A stretch of 64,000 nt of DNA from NCBI RefSeq assembly GCF_000814825.1, contig NZ_CP009302.1, positions 1,116,001 through 1,180,000 on the forward strand. Direction: 5' to 3'. Position 1 is the first letter of the stretch. Each line of letters opens with the position of its first letter. Of this stretch, positions 30,693-35,127 are shown piece after piece. Source of the DNA: Berryella intestinalis (GTDB lineage: Bacteria > Actinomycetota > Coriobacteriia > Coriobacteriales > Eggerthellaceae). The position numbers and the translations under genes are program-made. The notes beneath the pieces were generated by a model. The model ran no database searches, was not told where the DNA came from, and saw only the letters and a program-made list of their open reading frames with translations.

Positions 30693-31460
30693 CTACCCCT
30701 TCTTCTTGAAGACCAGGTACTCGTTGAGGTTCCCACCGCGCCCGTCGGCCCGAAAGCGCCCGACGGGCGCGGCAACGTCTGCAACCGCCGAGACGAGCCG
30801 TTCGACCTCGGCATCCGAGAAGCTGTGGCAGAAACGCAGGGCCCCGGTATCCTGCCACCCCAGCAGGTGATCGCCCGGCTCGAGATCGCCCTCCGAGATG
30901 CCCAGCCGCTTAATGCCCTGCGCCGTCGATGCGCGGGCCTTGCGCGCGAGGCGCGGGTCGTCCATGAAGCGCCACAGGGAAACGCACAGGCATCCCGCCG
31001 CCTCCGTCTTGTCGGCAAGCAGGCGAAGGGCGGCCGCGCGGGCCGCCTCGGTCGGCACATGGTGGAGAAAGCCGAAGCTCACCGCGATCGAGCATGGCGG
31101 CGCGAACAGGCCGTCGGCCGGATTTCCGCCCGCAAGCAGAAGCGAGCACACGTCTGCGCTCTGGTAACGCACCGCTCGCGCACCGTCCGCCGCGAGGGCG
31201 TCGCAGTTGTCCACCGCGAAGAAATCGAACGCGACGCCTTCGACCGAGCTTTGCAGATACGCCTCGAACCTGAGGTTTCCGCACGCCAGGTCGAACACGG
31301 ACGCCCGCGGGCCGTCGAAGACGCCCTCGCTCCGCACGATGTCGACGCAGCGGCCCCACCCCTCCCACGGGGCTTGGCGGGTAGCCGAAAACGAGCACGC
31401 GTTATCGCGGTAGAACCGCGTGTTCAGACTGCAGAGTATGTTCGCCACCGGAGTATCCAT
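30693..31460 (-). CDS. Trm9/ALKBH8-like SAM-dependent methyltransferase
   Basis: 255-aa class I methyltransferase. N-terminal FYRDNACSFSATRQAPWEGW (17-36) matches the FSxTRxxPW block of Trm9/ALKBH8 tRNA methyltransferases. Motif I is VFDLACGNLRFE (55-66). A post-motif SFGFLHHVPT (128-137) and the C-terminal block DHLLGWQDTGALRFCHSFSD (197-216) resemble Trm9's VPW and RYYHLF segments. Trm9 methylates cm5U34 of tRNA to mcm5U34. The gene is divergent from elp3, whose product makes cm5U34, with only 40 bases between the starts. The specific activity is inferred from motifs plus context; it could be another small-molecule methyltransferase. Confidence 0.75.
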   Translation of the reverse strand: MDTPVANILCSLNTRFYRDNACSFSATRQAPWEGWGRCVDIVRSEGVFDGPRASVFDLACGNLRFEAYLQSSVEGVAFDFFAVDNCDALAADGARAVRYQSADVCSLLLAGGNPADGLFAPPCSIAVSFGFLHHVPTEAARAAALRLLADKTEAAGCLCVSLWRFMDDPRLARKARASTAQGIKRLGISEGDLEPGDHLLGWQDTGALRFCHSFSDAEVERLVSAVADVAAPVGRFRADGRGGNLNEYLVFKKKG

Positions 31461-31469
31461 AAGTCACGC

Positions 31470-31496
31470 GCCCCATTCTATAGGATAGAATGGGGC
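31470..31496. promoter_or_regulatory. Perfect palindrome filling the elp3/methyltransferase gap
   Basis: GCCCCATTCTAT-AGG-ATAGAATGGGGC has perfect 12-bp arms with a 3-base centre. Each strand carries TAGAAT, the same -10-like hexamer seen before several genes here, pointing outward to each start codon. It may be a symmetric divergent promoter with very short or leaderless transcripts, an operator, or both. Recognisable -35 boxes are absent. Confidence 0.6.
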
Positions 31497-31500
31497 TACT

Positions 31501-33321
31501 GTGGAAGCCCTTTTACTCGACATACTCGCCCTGCTCAAACAGGGTGAAGCGATCGATGCCGCCAAGCTTGCGGCGCTCGTGCGCACACGCAACGAAAACG
31601 TGGCCGACGTGTCGAAGCACCTGGCGAAAAAGCGCCTCTTCCCCTTCTACCTGCGCGTGAAAACCGAGGATCCCGCACGCTGGCTGGGCTGGGGCATCGA
31701 CCCCGACCTCGAGAAACGGCTTTTGGCCGTCATACAGATGAAGCCCCGCCGGACGGCGAGCGGGGTGGCAACCATCACGGTCATCACGAAGCCCTGGCCG
31801 TGCGGCAGCGACTGCCTGTACTGCCCCAACGACGTGCGCATGCCCAAAAGCTACCTATCCGACGAACCCGCCTGCCAGCGGGCCGAGCGCAACTTCTTCG
31901 ACCCCTACCTCCAGGTGTCCTCGCGCCTGCGCGCCCTGCGCGAAATGGGGCATCCCACCGACAAGATCGAGCTCATCGTGCTCGGCGGAACCTGGTGCGA
32001 CTACCCCGAAGGCTATCGGATATGGTTCGTCCGCGAGCTGTTCCGCGCGCTGAACGACCCGCTGGAACGGGCTGCGGGCGAGGCCGAGCGGATCCGCGAG
32101 CGCTACCGCGGCTGGGAGATCCCCTCCGACGCGGAGGCGCTCGCCCGAAACGCGGAAGCCGAGCAGGACCGCGTGACATCGCGCGAAACGACCTACAACC
32201 AGGCCGTTTCGCGCCTTTACGGCGAGCATGCCGGATGGCGGCGCGCCGCGCTCGAGCAGACCGCGACCTTCGCCGAGCTCGAGGCCCAGCACGAACTGAA
32301 CGAGCGTGCCGACCGGCGCGTCGTGGGGCTCGTCATCGAGACCAGGCCCGAAAGCATCACGGCGGACCGGCTGGCCCACATCCGCCGCCTTGGCTGCACG
32401 AAGGTCCAGATCGGCGTGCAGAGCCTCGACGAAGCCATCCTGCGCGAGAACAACCGCGCGGGCGATGCGACCGCGGTGGCGCGCTCGTTTGCGCTCGCGC
32501 GGGCGTTCGGGTTCAAGATCCATGCGCACATGATGGCCAACCTTTGCGGAGCCACCCCCGAAAGCGACCTGGCCGACTACCGCCGACTGGTCGGCGATCC
32601 CGCCTTTCGCCCCGACGAGGTGAAGCTCTACCCCTGCGCGCTGGTCGACGGCACCGCGCTCGTCGAGCGCTTCGCCGAGGGAACCTGGAGCCCTTACGGG
32701 GAAGACGAGCTCATCGAGCTTCTGGCCCGCTGCGTTCTGGCCACTCCGCCCTACACGCGCATCTCGCGCATGATCCGCGACATATCGGCCCGCGACATCA
32801 TGGCGGGCAACAAGAAGACGAACCTGAGGCAGCTGGTCGAAGCCGCGGTCGCCCGGTCGGATAAACCGGTCGACGAGATCCGCTACCGCGAGCTGAGCAC
32901 CGCAGACGCCGCTCCCGAAACCCTCGAGCTCTCGGTGTTTCCCTACGAAACCGCCCATGCAGACGAGCGGTTCCTCCAGTGGACGATGCGATCCGACGGC
33001 GCCGAGAAGATCGCCGGGTTCCTGCGCCTGTCGCTTCCCCACGCCGACTTCGTCCGAGAACACGCAAGCGAGCTGCCCGTGTCCGTCGGGGACGCGATGA
33101 TCCGCGAAGTGCACGTCTACGGGAAGGCGGCCCAGCTGCACGACACCAGCACCGGTGCGCAGCATCTGGGCCTGGGTCGCAGGCTGGTGGAAGAGGCCTG
33201 CGCGATCGCACGGAGCGCCGGGTACCGCCGCATGAACGTGATCAGCGCCGTGGGAACGCGCGGCTACTATCGCAACCTGGGATTTTCCGACTGCGGCCTC
33301 TACCAGCGCCGCAACCTGTGA
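31501..33321 (+). CDS. elp3: Bacterial Elp3 (radical SAM/GNAT tRNA U34 enzyme)
   Basis: 606 aa. The radical-SAM cluster motif is CGSDCLYC (Cys101, 105, 108) within KPWPCGSDCLYCPND, with standard Cx3Cx2C spacing rather than the longer eukaryotic loop. Elp3-specific blocks follow: IVLGGTWCDYPEGYRIWFVR, VIETRPESITADRLAHIRRL, TKVQIGVQSLDEAILRENNR and VKLYPCALVDGTAL. The C-terminal acetyltransferase domain (about 470-606) ends with IREVHVYG, LGLGRRLVEEACAIA and ISAVGTRGYYRNLGFSD. Elp3 uses acetyl-CoA and SAM to put a carboxymethyl group on tRNA wobble uridine; single-subunit forms are known from Dehalococcoides and archaea. The start is GTG 31501. Confidence 0.93.
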   Translation: MEALLLDILALLKQGEAIDAAKLAALVRTRNENVADVSKHLAKKRLFPFYLRVKTEDPARWLGWGIDPDLEKRLLAVIQMKPRRTASGVATITVITKPWPCGSDCLYCPNDVRMPKSYLSDEPACQRAERNFFDPYLQVSSRLRALREMGHPTDKIELIVLGGTWCDYPEGYRIWFVRELFRALNDPLERAAGEAERIRERYRGWEIPSDAEALARNAEAEQDRVTSRETTYNQAVSRLYGEHAGWRRAALEQTATFAELEAQHELNERADRRVVGLVIETRPESITADRLAHIRRLGCTKVQIGVQSLDEAILRENNRAGDATAVARSFALARAFGFKIHAHMMANLCGATPESDLADYRRLVGDPAFRPDEVKLYPCALVDGTALVERFAEGTWSPYGEDELIELLARCVLATPPYTRISRMIRDISARDIMAGNKKTNLRQLVEAAVARSDKPVDEIRYRELSTADAAPETLELSVFPYETAHADERFLQWTMRSDGAEKIAGFLRLSLPHADFVREHASELPVSVGDAMIREVHVYGKAAQLHDTSTGAQHLGLGRRLVEEACAIARSAGYRRMNVISAVGTRGYYRNLGFSDCGLYQRRNL

Positions 33322-33331
33322 AAAGCCGGCT

Positions 33332-34033
33332 CTAGAAATGCTCCACCATATGCCGCACGACCGACGCGCAGCGGTAGGCGGCCTCTTTCTCGAACGCAGG
33401 GTAATCGACGCGCGCCGATCCGTCCGCCTTGTCCGACACCGCTCGGACGATCACGAACGGCACCCTGCTCAAGGCGCAGGCCTGGGCGATGGCCGCACCC
33501 TCCATCTCGCAGCACAGCCCCCCGAAGGTCCCCGCGATGTCGTTTTTGTCGCCCTCGTCGGCGATGAAGCGGTCGCCTGAGAGGATCCTGCCCTGGAACA
33601 CGCGCACGCCGGGCGCAACCGCGTCCGCCGCCGCCACCGCGCAAGCGCGCAGATGCTCGTCGGCCCGGAAAAACGAGTCGATGGGCATCTGGGGCACCAC
33701 CCCGCGCTCGTATCCGAAGTTCGTGGCGTCCATGTCGTGTTGGACCGCATCGGTCGACACCACCAGATCGCCGATGTCGATAGACGCGTCGAGCGACCCG
33801 GCGATACCCGTGTTGACCACATGCGTGACTTGGAACACGCTGATCAGAACCTGAGCGCACAGAGCCGCGTTCACCTTGCCGATGCCCGAGCGCACCACCA
33901 CGACCTCGGTACCGCCCAGCGCCCCCGCGCAGAACTCGGTCGACATATGATGGCTCACGGAAAGCGAGCTCATGGAGTTCTTCAGCTGCTCGGCTTCGAC
34001 CTCCATGGCGGCGATGATCCCGAATCTCACCAT
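33332..34033 (-). CDS. mtnN: MTA/SAH nucleosidase (Pfs)
   Basis: 233-aa 5'-methylthioadenosine/S-adenosylhomocysteine nucleosidase. It has the family start RFGIIAAMEVEAEQLK with the catalytic acid Glu in AMEVE, VVRSGIGKVNAAL, NTGIAGSLDASIDIGDLVV, the substrate-binding CCEMEGAAIAQA, and catalytic Asp in VRAVSDKAD. It removes adenine from S-adenosylhomocysteine and from 5'-deoxyadenosine, products of the neighbouring methyltransferase and radical-SAM enzymes. It is the second gene of a luxS-mtnN pair (3-base spacing) and is convergent with elp3, 10 bases apart. Confidence 0.94.
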   Translation of the reverse strand: MVRFGIIAAMEVEAEQLKNSMSSLSVSHHMSTEFCAGALGGTEVVVVRSGIGKVNAALCAQVLISVFQVTHVVNTGIAGSLDASIDIGDLVVSTDAVQHDMDATNFGYERGVVPQMPIDSFFRADEHLRACAVAAADAVAPGVRVFQGRILSGDRFIADEGDKNDIAGTFGGLCCEMEGAAIAQACALSRVPFVIVRAVSDKADGSARVDYPAFEKEAAYRCASVVRHMVEHF

Positions 34034-34035
34034 GG

Positions 34036-34530
34036 CTACTCCCCGATCTGCGGGTAGGTCGTGTGCTCCTCGTCAAGCGACGACAGCGTCTTGTCGAAGT
34101 AGTGGCGCGCCCACCATTTCGCCCCCATGAGATCGCTGTCGTGGTAGTTCCCGCACTCCACCGGCGTGGCCCCGGGAACCTCCCCCTCGAAATCGCGCAC
34201 GAACGCGAACATGCCGCGCACCAGGTCGGCCACGTCCGCAGGCGCGTATTCGCCGAACAGCACCAGGTAGAACCCCGTGCGGCAACCCATCGGGCCGAAG
34301 TACACGACCCGGCTTGCCCACGAGGGATCGTTGCGCAGGTAGGTGGCTATCAGATGCTCGATGGCATGCACGGACGCGGTGTCGATGACCGGCTCGCGGT
34401 TCGGCGCCGTCATCCGCAGGTCGAACGTGGTGACCGGGCTGCCGTGCTCGGGATCGCGATCGATCCGCGACACGTACACGCCGGGCTCCAGTCGCAGATG
34501 GTCGATGGTGAAGCTTGCGATGCGCTCCAT
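34036..34530 (-). CDS. luxS: S-ribosylhomocysteine lyase LuxS
   Basis: 164-aa LuxS, which splits S-ribosylhomocysteine into homocysteine and the autoinducer-2 precursor. The metal site is complete: HAIEH (His55, Glu58, His59) and Cys126 in VECGNYHD. The catalytic Cys83 is in GPMGCRTGFY. A GAAGGAGAG ribosome site precedes ATG 34530. A TATACT box on the minus strand at 34580-34575 may be the -10. With mtnN it forms the standard activated-methyl recycling pair. Signalling by AI-2 is possible but nothing local shows it. Confidence 0.95.
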   Translation of the reverse strand: MERIASFTIDHLRLEPGVYVSRIDRDPEHGSPVTTFDLRMTAPNREPVIDTASVHAIEHLIATYLRNDPSWASRVVYFGPMGCRTGFYLVLFGEYAPADVADLVRGMFAFVRDFEGEVPGATPVECGNYHDSDLMGAKWWARHYFDKTLSSLDEEHTTYPQIGE

Positions 34531-34707
34531 GGCTCTCCTTCTTTCGCGCGCGTCGTTTCATCGTTGCGATCCGTAGTATAGCGGGGATGGGCGGCTTCGG
34601 CCCAAAACTCCGCGGTTACGGAAACCCCCCCCCTTCGCCTTCGGCGGGCCCGAGCGCTGCGGGCGTGCGCTAGAATGGGCGGACAACCGCAACGCGACGG
34701 AGGACCC

Positions 34708-35127
34708 ATGTACGAACTGAAAACCGAAACCGCCTTCGACGGCGCCCACTTCCTCACCGACTACTACGGCAAATGCGAGAACCTGCACGGGCATCGCTGG
34801 CGCGTCGTGGCCTACATCGGCAAGGAAGCGCTCGAGACCGCCGGCACGCACAAGGACATGGTGCTCGACTTCAGCGTGTTCAAGCGCACGGTGCGCGCGG
34901 TCGCCGAAGAGCTCGACCACACCTTCCTCGTGGAAGAGGGCTCGCTCAGACCCGAAACGATCGCCTGCCTCGAATCGGAAGGGTTCGACCTGACCGTCCT
35001 GCCCTTCCGCACAACCGCCGAGAACCTGGCGACCTACCTGTTCGAGCGCATAGCCGCCTCCGGGCTGCCCGCCACCTGCGTCGAGGTGTACGAGACCCCC
35101 AACAACTGCGCGATCTACCGGCCCTAG
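34708..35127 (+). CDS. queD: QueD-family 6-carboxytetrahydropterin synthase
   Basis: 139-aa tunnelling-fold enzyme of the 6-pyruvoyl-tetrahydropterin synthase/QueD family. The zinc ligands and catalytic Cys are visible in AHFLTDYYGKCENLHGHRW, followed by KDMVLDFSVFKR, ELDHTFLVEEG, PTAEN-like TTAENLATYLFE and CVEVYETPNNCAIY. It converts 7,8-dihydroneopterin triphosphate to 6-carboxytetrahydropterin for queuosine (wobble G34 of tRNA), unless it serves another pterin route. No queC, queE or queF is in the window. ATG 34708 follows GGAGGA; the in-frame upstream GTG has no ribosome site. TAGAAT at 34673-34678 may be its -10. Confidence 0.85.
   Translation: MYELKTETAFDGAHFLTDYYGKCENLHGHRWRVVAYIGKEALETAGTHKDMVLDFSVFKRTVRAVAEELDHTFLVEEGSLRPETIACLESEGFDLTVLPFRTTAENLATYLFERIAASGLPATCVEVYETPNNCAIYRP

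Follow-up and report, generated by a model that had tools for sequence, protein, structure and literature searches.

A perfect palindrome between divergent elp3 and methyltransferase genes of Berryella intestinalis: a probable bidirectional promoter with almost no leaders

Results

The window analyzed here is a stretch of 64,000 nucleotides of the Berryella intestinalis genome, in which a methyltransferase gene on the minus strand and elp3 on the plus strand are read divergently from a gap of 40 bases (31461-31500). A perfect inverted repeat occupies 27 of these 40 bases, leaving 9 bases before the methyltransferase ATG (31460) and 4 before the GTG of elp3 (31501). The repeat reads GCCCCATTCTAT-AGG-ATAGAATGGGGC, and pairing of its arms (31470-31481 with 31485-31496, around a 3-base centre) bore out the initial annotation, which had described a perfect palindrome of 27 bases with 12-base arms within this gap. 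It had also noticed the same TAGAAT hexamer with a GGGG tail on both strands; both copies are present, at 31486-31491 on the plus strand and 31480-31475 on the minus strand, each followed directly by GGGG. All features are collected in Table 1.

Table 1. Genes, repeat elements and proposed promoter elements at the elp3/methyltransferase gap (window coordinates)
Feature	Position	Strand	Evidence
Class I SAM methyltransferase, 255 aa, distant Trm9-like	30693-31460	-	profile A1 best PDB match Trm9 5cm2_Z
Predicted methyltransferase transcription start (hexamer end + 7), 8-base leader	31468	-	spacing only
Perfect inverted repeat 12-3-12	31470-31496		12/12 arm pairs; unique in 1.97 Mb genome
Outer left arm GCCCC	31470-31474		pairs with 31492-31496; not conserved
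Inner 17-base core ATTCTATAGGATAGAAT	31475-31491		identical in nearest relative L003/L062
TAGAAT, proposed methyltransferase -10 element	31475-31480	-	14 bases before ATG; TANAAT in 35/59 gaps of at most 120 bases
T, 5 bases upstream of elp3 hexamer	31481	+	T in 41/71 elp3 promoters
Matching T(-17) of methyltransferase promoter	31485	-	29/42 promoters
TAGAAT, proposed elp3 -10 element	31486-31491	+	9 bases before GTG; TANAAT in 71/120 elp3 starts
Outer right arm GGGGC	31492-31496		not conserved
Predicted elp3 transcription start (hexamer end + 7), 3-base leader	31498	+	spacing only
elp3, radical SAM + GNAT tRNA U34 enzyme, 606 aa, GTG start	31501-33321	+	TIGR01211 403.1 bits, cut-off 350

First-order simulations of the 64-kb window (n = 60) gave an expectation of 0.083 perfect inverted repeats with arms of at least 12 bases and loops of at most 8, and the window has 5. 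In 304 kb of the same genome there were 21 perfect inverted repeats of this size or larger, mostly G+C-rich hairpins of another kind. The 27-base palindrome is thus beyond chance, yet repeats of such size are not rare in this genome. Neither a second copy of the full repeat (up to 3 mismatches) nor one of the 17-base core (up to 1 mismatch) was present in the 1.97 Mb genome. Elsewhere in the genome (L199, 466-499 and 4074-4101), two inverted repeats that contain A+T depart from the usual G+C-rich hairpins; they comprise GTCAAAAGTATAG...CTATACTTTTGAC and a 28-base perfect palindrome centred on ACAATATATTGT.

With 24 of its 27 bases able to pair, the palindrome might be taken for a hairpin in DNA or in read-through RNA, acting as an attenuator or cruciform or marking a mobile element. 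We consider this highly improbable, since the sequence is not kept as a hairpin in relatives, no terminator-like site was found at the palindrome, and the full pattern had no exact match in the viral contig collection and, as stated, no second genomic copy.

Pfam and NCBIfam gave generic methyltransferase matches only for the minus-strand gene product, and a phmmer search of the PDB with this protein alone did not find Trm9 at E ≤ 10. When the 19-row profile A1 was compared with the PDB, Trm9 came first (E 1.7e-7), and the next match had E 1.3e-5. The window protein is linked to Trm9 through intermediate homologues from two further families of the phylum; for one of these homologues, L223, Trm9 was the best PDB match with E 9.8e-18 over residues 26-218, including the R-Y-x-H lid motif. 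An AlphaFold model of the methyltransferase (pLDDT 95.8) retrieved Trm9 at rank 15 in Foldseek (E 1.5e-8), and the top VIA-align match was the tRNA methyltransferase METTL6 (Z 20.0, rmsd 3.0, 216 aligned), with Trm9 absent from the best 50 VIA-align rows; the fold is common, and Trm9 does not stand out in these structure comparisons. In yeast Trm9, R29, H115, R241, Y243 and N271 orient the tRNA, according to section 2.2.2 of PMC5372719. In a joint alignment (A3), all 17 rows share R28, H133, R209 and N246 of the window protein, which lie at or near yeast R29, H115, R241 and N271; the profile A1 match places R28 and the HH pair against Trm9, R209 is placed via L223, and the N246-N271 correspondence lies outside any alignment. 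The place of Y243 is taken by C211 in the window protein and by F or Y in L224 and L226. Judged from the profile comparisons, the window methyltransferase is a distant relative of Trm9.

The divergent methyltransferase-elp3 pair is widespread in relatives. To compare its promoters, identical regions upstream of elp3 were merged into 120 distinct starts, with 37 loci left out because they had no usable start (among the 72 loci fetched later, 21 were represented by only ~50 codons). Of the 120, 71 had TANAAT within 5-12 bases upstream of elp3, the observed distances all being 6-10 bases, against 0.7% of shuffled upstream regions. It was missing at that distance from 49 starts, some of which are doubtful calls, and even TANNNT was missing from 26; doubtful starts kept in the 120 include L110, L121, L152, L158, L160 and L194. 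A Shine-Dalgarno-like 4-mer preceded none of the 71 TANAAT-bearing starts and 5 of the 120 overall; for contrast, 94 of 198 ORFs in the B. intestinalis genome carried one upstream of some candidate start.

The gap to the methyltransferase could be measured at 90 elp3 starts and was at most 45 bases at 29. These 29 short gaps held the elp3 box in 22 cases, the facing methyltransferase box in 21 and both in 15, and in the 59 gaps of at most 120 bases the elp3 box was present in 44, the methyltransferase box (5-16 bases from the start) in 35 and both in 23; rows of either count have common ancestry and are not independent. TANAAT appeared on the methyltransferase side of 1.3% of shuffled controls. 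Stacked elp3 promoters read TA[CGT]AAT and carried, when the hexamer is numbered -12 to -7, a T at -17; the frequencies of this T in elp3 and methyltransferase promoters are given in Table 1. A -35 signal was not found in the stacked elp3 promoters, nor did a consensus scan find a sigma-70 promoter at the palindrome. In long gaps each box keeps near its own start; in L027/L071, for example, the gap is 104 bases and the hexamers are 71 apart. Palindromic -10 stretches (ATTCTATAGAAT and ATTCTAGTATAGAAT) also occur at elp3 in L161 and L157, at distances of 206 and 88 bases from the methyltransferase start; the antisense box there would give the methyltransferase a long leader, or has another role.

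We took as leaderless a -10 element lying 5-12 bases before the start codon without a Shine-Dalgarno sequence, and window elp3, whose hexamer is 9 bases from its GTG, falls within this definition. GGGG stands 5 bases before that GTG and is missing from the nearest relative. The methyltransferase hexamer lies 14 bases before its ATG, a distance from which a short leader of about 8 bases would follow.

The comparison of relatives separated two parts of the palindrome. In the nearest relative, Gordonibacter sp. Marseille-P4307 (L003/L062), whose elp3 is 83% identical, ATTCTATAGGATAGAAT is unaltered and both outer arms are changed, and the pattern ATT[CG]TA-T-NNN-A-TA[CG]AAT is present in L025 and L083 too. 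Among 15 loci with closely facing hexamers on both strands of one short stretch, the window included, the spacing between hexamers was -2 (six loci), 5 (three, including the window), 7, 8 (three), 13 or 15; a single genus, g64, includes spacings of -2, 8 and 15 (L180, L181, L188, L112, L183, L189 and L136). Unlike the spacing between hexamers, the distance that separates a hexamer from the start codon of its gene falls in a narrow range across relatives. The outer arms form 5 pairs in the window genome only and 0-1 pairs in the other 14 loci, so that a conserved 27-base palindrome was rejected as a description of the locus. The differences of the outer arms from the nearest relative, present on both sides, are what template-switch correction of a near-palindrome would produce, which we mention as an idea. 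The initial annotation had staked its reading on the palindrome being present in relatives that keep the gene pair; the full 27-mer was not seen in them, and what persisted, in many, was the facing hexamers.

These results bear on the suggestion, also made at the outset, that a dimeric regulator uses the palindrome as its operator and so silences the two genes jointly. Perfect symmetry would suit an operator, the more so because it includes 5 outer pairs that by our arithmetic would arise by chance with a probability of ~0.0014 at 63.6% G+C, and the site does lie between divergent genes. However, the outer arms are missing from the nearest relative, the half-site spacing ranges from -2 to 15 where a dimer operator would be expected to hold it fixed, the symmetry coincides with the two -10 hexamers, and the genome has no second such site, not even for the 17-base core with one mismatch allowed, which also led us to reject an operator serving a regulon. 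We therefore dropped the dimeric regulator as a quite improbable explanation. Variable spacing between the boxes argues instead that the palindrome represents two back-to-back -10 elements. With a 5-base spacer, both T(-17) positions come to lie inside the shared spacer (T-NNN-A), which extends the symmetry beyond the hexamers and accounts for the 17-base core. The palindrome most probably consists of two outward-facing -10 elements, each starting its own gene with almost no leader, and comparison of relatives thus backs the mirror-image promoters proposed initially.

Near-leaderless starts might be a general habit of the genome, and we rejected this as the cause. ORFs were called by a crude longest-first choice. 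Of 198 ORFs in 304 kb of the B. intestinalis genome, 3, including elp3, had TANAAT 5-10 bases upstream of a candidate start, and this distance showed no peak relative to others; TANNNT at 5-10 bases was observed 22 times against 25.7 expected, again with no peak, and neighbouring ORFs in relatives gave 3 of 93. Since the leaderless spacing is not general in the genome, the near-leaderless start appears to be a property kept at the elp3/methyltransferase pair, a locus that would be an exception to the genome's usual starts. Leaderless promoters of Mycobacterium tuberculosis have a TANNNT-type -10 element directly before the start codon, without a Shine-Dalgarno sequence. The elp3 start resembles them in that its proposed -10 element lies directly before the start codon and no Shine-Dalgarno sequence is present, and differs in that the arrangement is rare in its own genome and locus-specific.

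Within 60 relatives, including B. intestinalis itself, 44 genomes had both genes, one (G042) had elp3 alone, none had the methyltransferase alone and 15 had neither (Fisher 3e-13, for genomes that are not independent; G046 was taken as elp3-positive from a C-terminal fragment). The picture was the same in 246 genomes sampled evenly across the phylum: the methyltransferase (profile E ≤ 1e-12) was found in 18, elp3 (TIGR01211 E ≤ 1e-20) in 18, and the two sets of 18 were identical. Carriers from other families had both genes divergent on one contig (G193, G217 and G229) or on different contigs (G372). In these four genomes (L217-L219, L223-L226) Elp3 scored 594-605 bits on TIGR01211, against ~400 here, and a Trm9-like gene adjoins elp3 where contigs allow, so that two Elp3 types have the same kind of partner. 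A homologous methyltransferase gene also lies divergent and just upstream of an elp3-like gene on a Candidatus Dojkabacteria contig (L095). MnmG, through which bacteria usually modify C5 of U34, was above cut-off in none of the 60 genomes, including those without elp3. Stand-alone Trm112 (PF03966) was not seen in the 60 genomes; weak PF03966 matches in 7 of them lay inside frames of 320-795 aa, that of B. intestinalis scoring 23.4 bits in a 320-aa frame.

Just past the end of elp3, and encoded on the other strand, are mtnN (MTA/SAH nucleosidase) and luxS (33332-34530), which would recycle SAH and 5'-deoxyadenosine from Elp3 and the methyltransferase. A queD-like gene (34675-35127; 82 bits, cut-off 89), another wobble-base (queuosine) gene, is nearby. 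A wider conserved neighbourhood was rejected: mtnN, luxS and queD were linked in 1 of 37 loci, that of the nearest relative.

Discussion

We propose that the site would work as a single compact bidirectional promoter needing no regulator. TAGAAT on each strand, the two copies 5 bases apart and each with its T at about -17, would serve as -10 element with no recognisable -35 element. Each would fire outward, from predicted starts at about 31498 (plus) and 31468 (minus), some 30 bp apart, giving leaders of ~3 bases for elp3 and ~8 for the methyltransferase. The inward sides would overlap and admit one RNA polymerase at a time. The symmetry past the two boxes (GCCCC/GGGGC) is a peculiarity of the window genome.

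Such a site is like the bidirectional promoters with symmetric -10 elements of Warman, Grainger and colleagues, in which, as set out in PMC12825309, -10 elements facing each other in one short stretch give two divergent mRNAs. PMC12825309 reports that opposing polymerases cannot bind at once at E. coli bidirectional promoters, that basal activity of those tested was too low for competition, so that the directions run independently, that either direction, once activated, tends to repress its counterpart, and that start distances of 18, 10 or 23 bp are preferred. The start distance predicted from spacing in the window, ~30 bp, falls outside these values; by our own geometry, a distance of 23 bp would follow from the overlapping hexamers (ATTGTACAAT) of L180, L181 and L188. 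The locus differs from these promoters in having its boxes 5 bases apart and both predicted transcripts leaderless or nearly so. The initial annotation had seen in the mirror-image arrangement a guarantee of matched expression, a claim that finds no support here: hexamers 5 bases apart should bar simultaneous polymerase binding, and exclusion and repression of the kind reported in PMC12825309 would not guarantee it. Among open-licence papers on bidirectional or leaderless promoters in actinobacteria and Eggerthella, nothing related was found.

Two ordinary promoters could instead lie close together by chance, their starts working separately and the palindrome being meaningless beyond the two boxes. 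Relatives with long gaps, which hold the boxes far apart and near each start, would fit this account, as would the 0-1 outer pairs in other loci, but its sole difference from the bidirectional promoter is a denial of polymerase exclusion, which is hard to avoid when 29 of the 90 measurable gaps are so short; we regard it as unlikely.

Distant kinship with Trm9 together with unbroken co-occurrence with elp3 in the 246-genome sample suggests a bacterial route from cm5U to mcm5U34. In this route Elp3 would be expected to make cm5U34 in tRNA, and the Trm9-like methyltransferase is proposed to esterify it to mcm5U34, an assignment that we advance tentatively. The pair resembles the eukaryotic Elp3 - Trm9 (ALKBH8) wobble-uridine pathway, which likewise joins Elp3 and a class I methyltransferase (PMC5372719); it differs in that a separate Trm112 was not found in the genomes searched here and that the window protein is a distant relative with a predicted product. 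PMC2584109 and PMC5372719 describe an elp3 and trm9 gene cluster in Sulfolobus solfataricus, with a proposed mcm5U-type product, and PMC2584109 calls mcm5U typical of Eukarya. The same two families are linked in the window, and unlike the archaeal cluster the pair is bacterial, divergent and equipped with a proposed shared promoter. No description of a bacterial Elp3-Trm9 pair was found in the open-licence literature, judged by titles and the beginnings of abstracts. Taken jointly, a mcm5U34 pathway apparently without Trm112, in lineages lacking MnmG, might be expressed from one leaderless bidirectional promoter where polymerase exclusion balances the genes without a regulator; we offer this as a possible reading, with some doubt.

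At the palindrome, the sharing of one minimal promoter by two mRNAs with no leader, or almost none, could be put to the test; the arrangement is kept across related genera although such starts are not general in the genome. The accompanying Elp3-Trm9-like pair would allow the end product of bacterial Elp3, and the occurrence of mcm5U outside eukaryotes and archaea, to be checked directly in cultured relatives.
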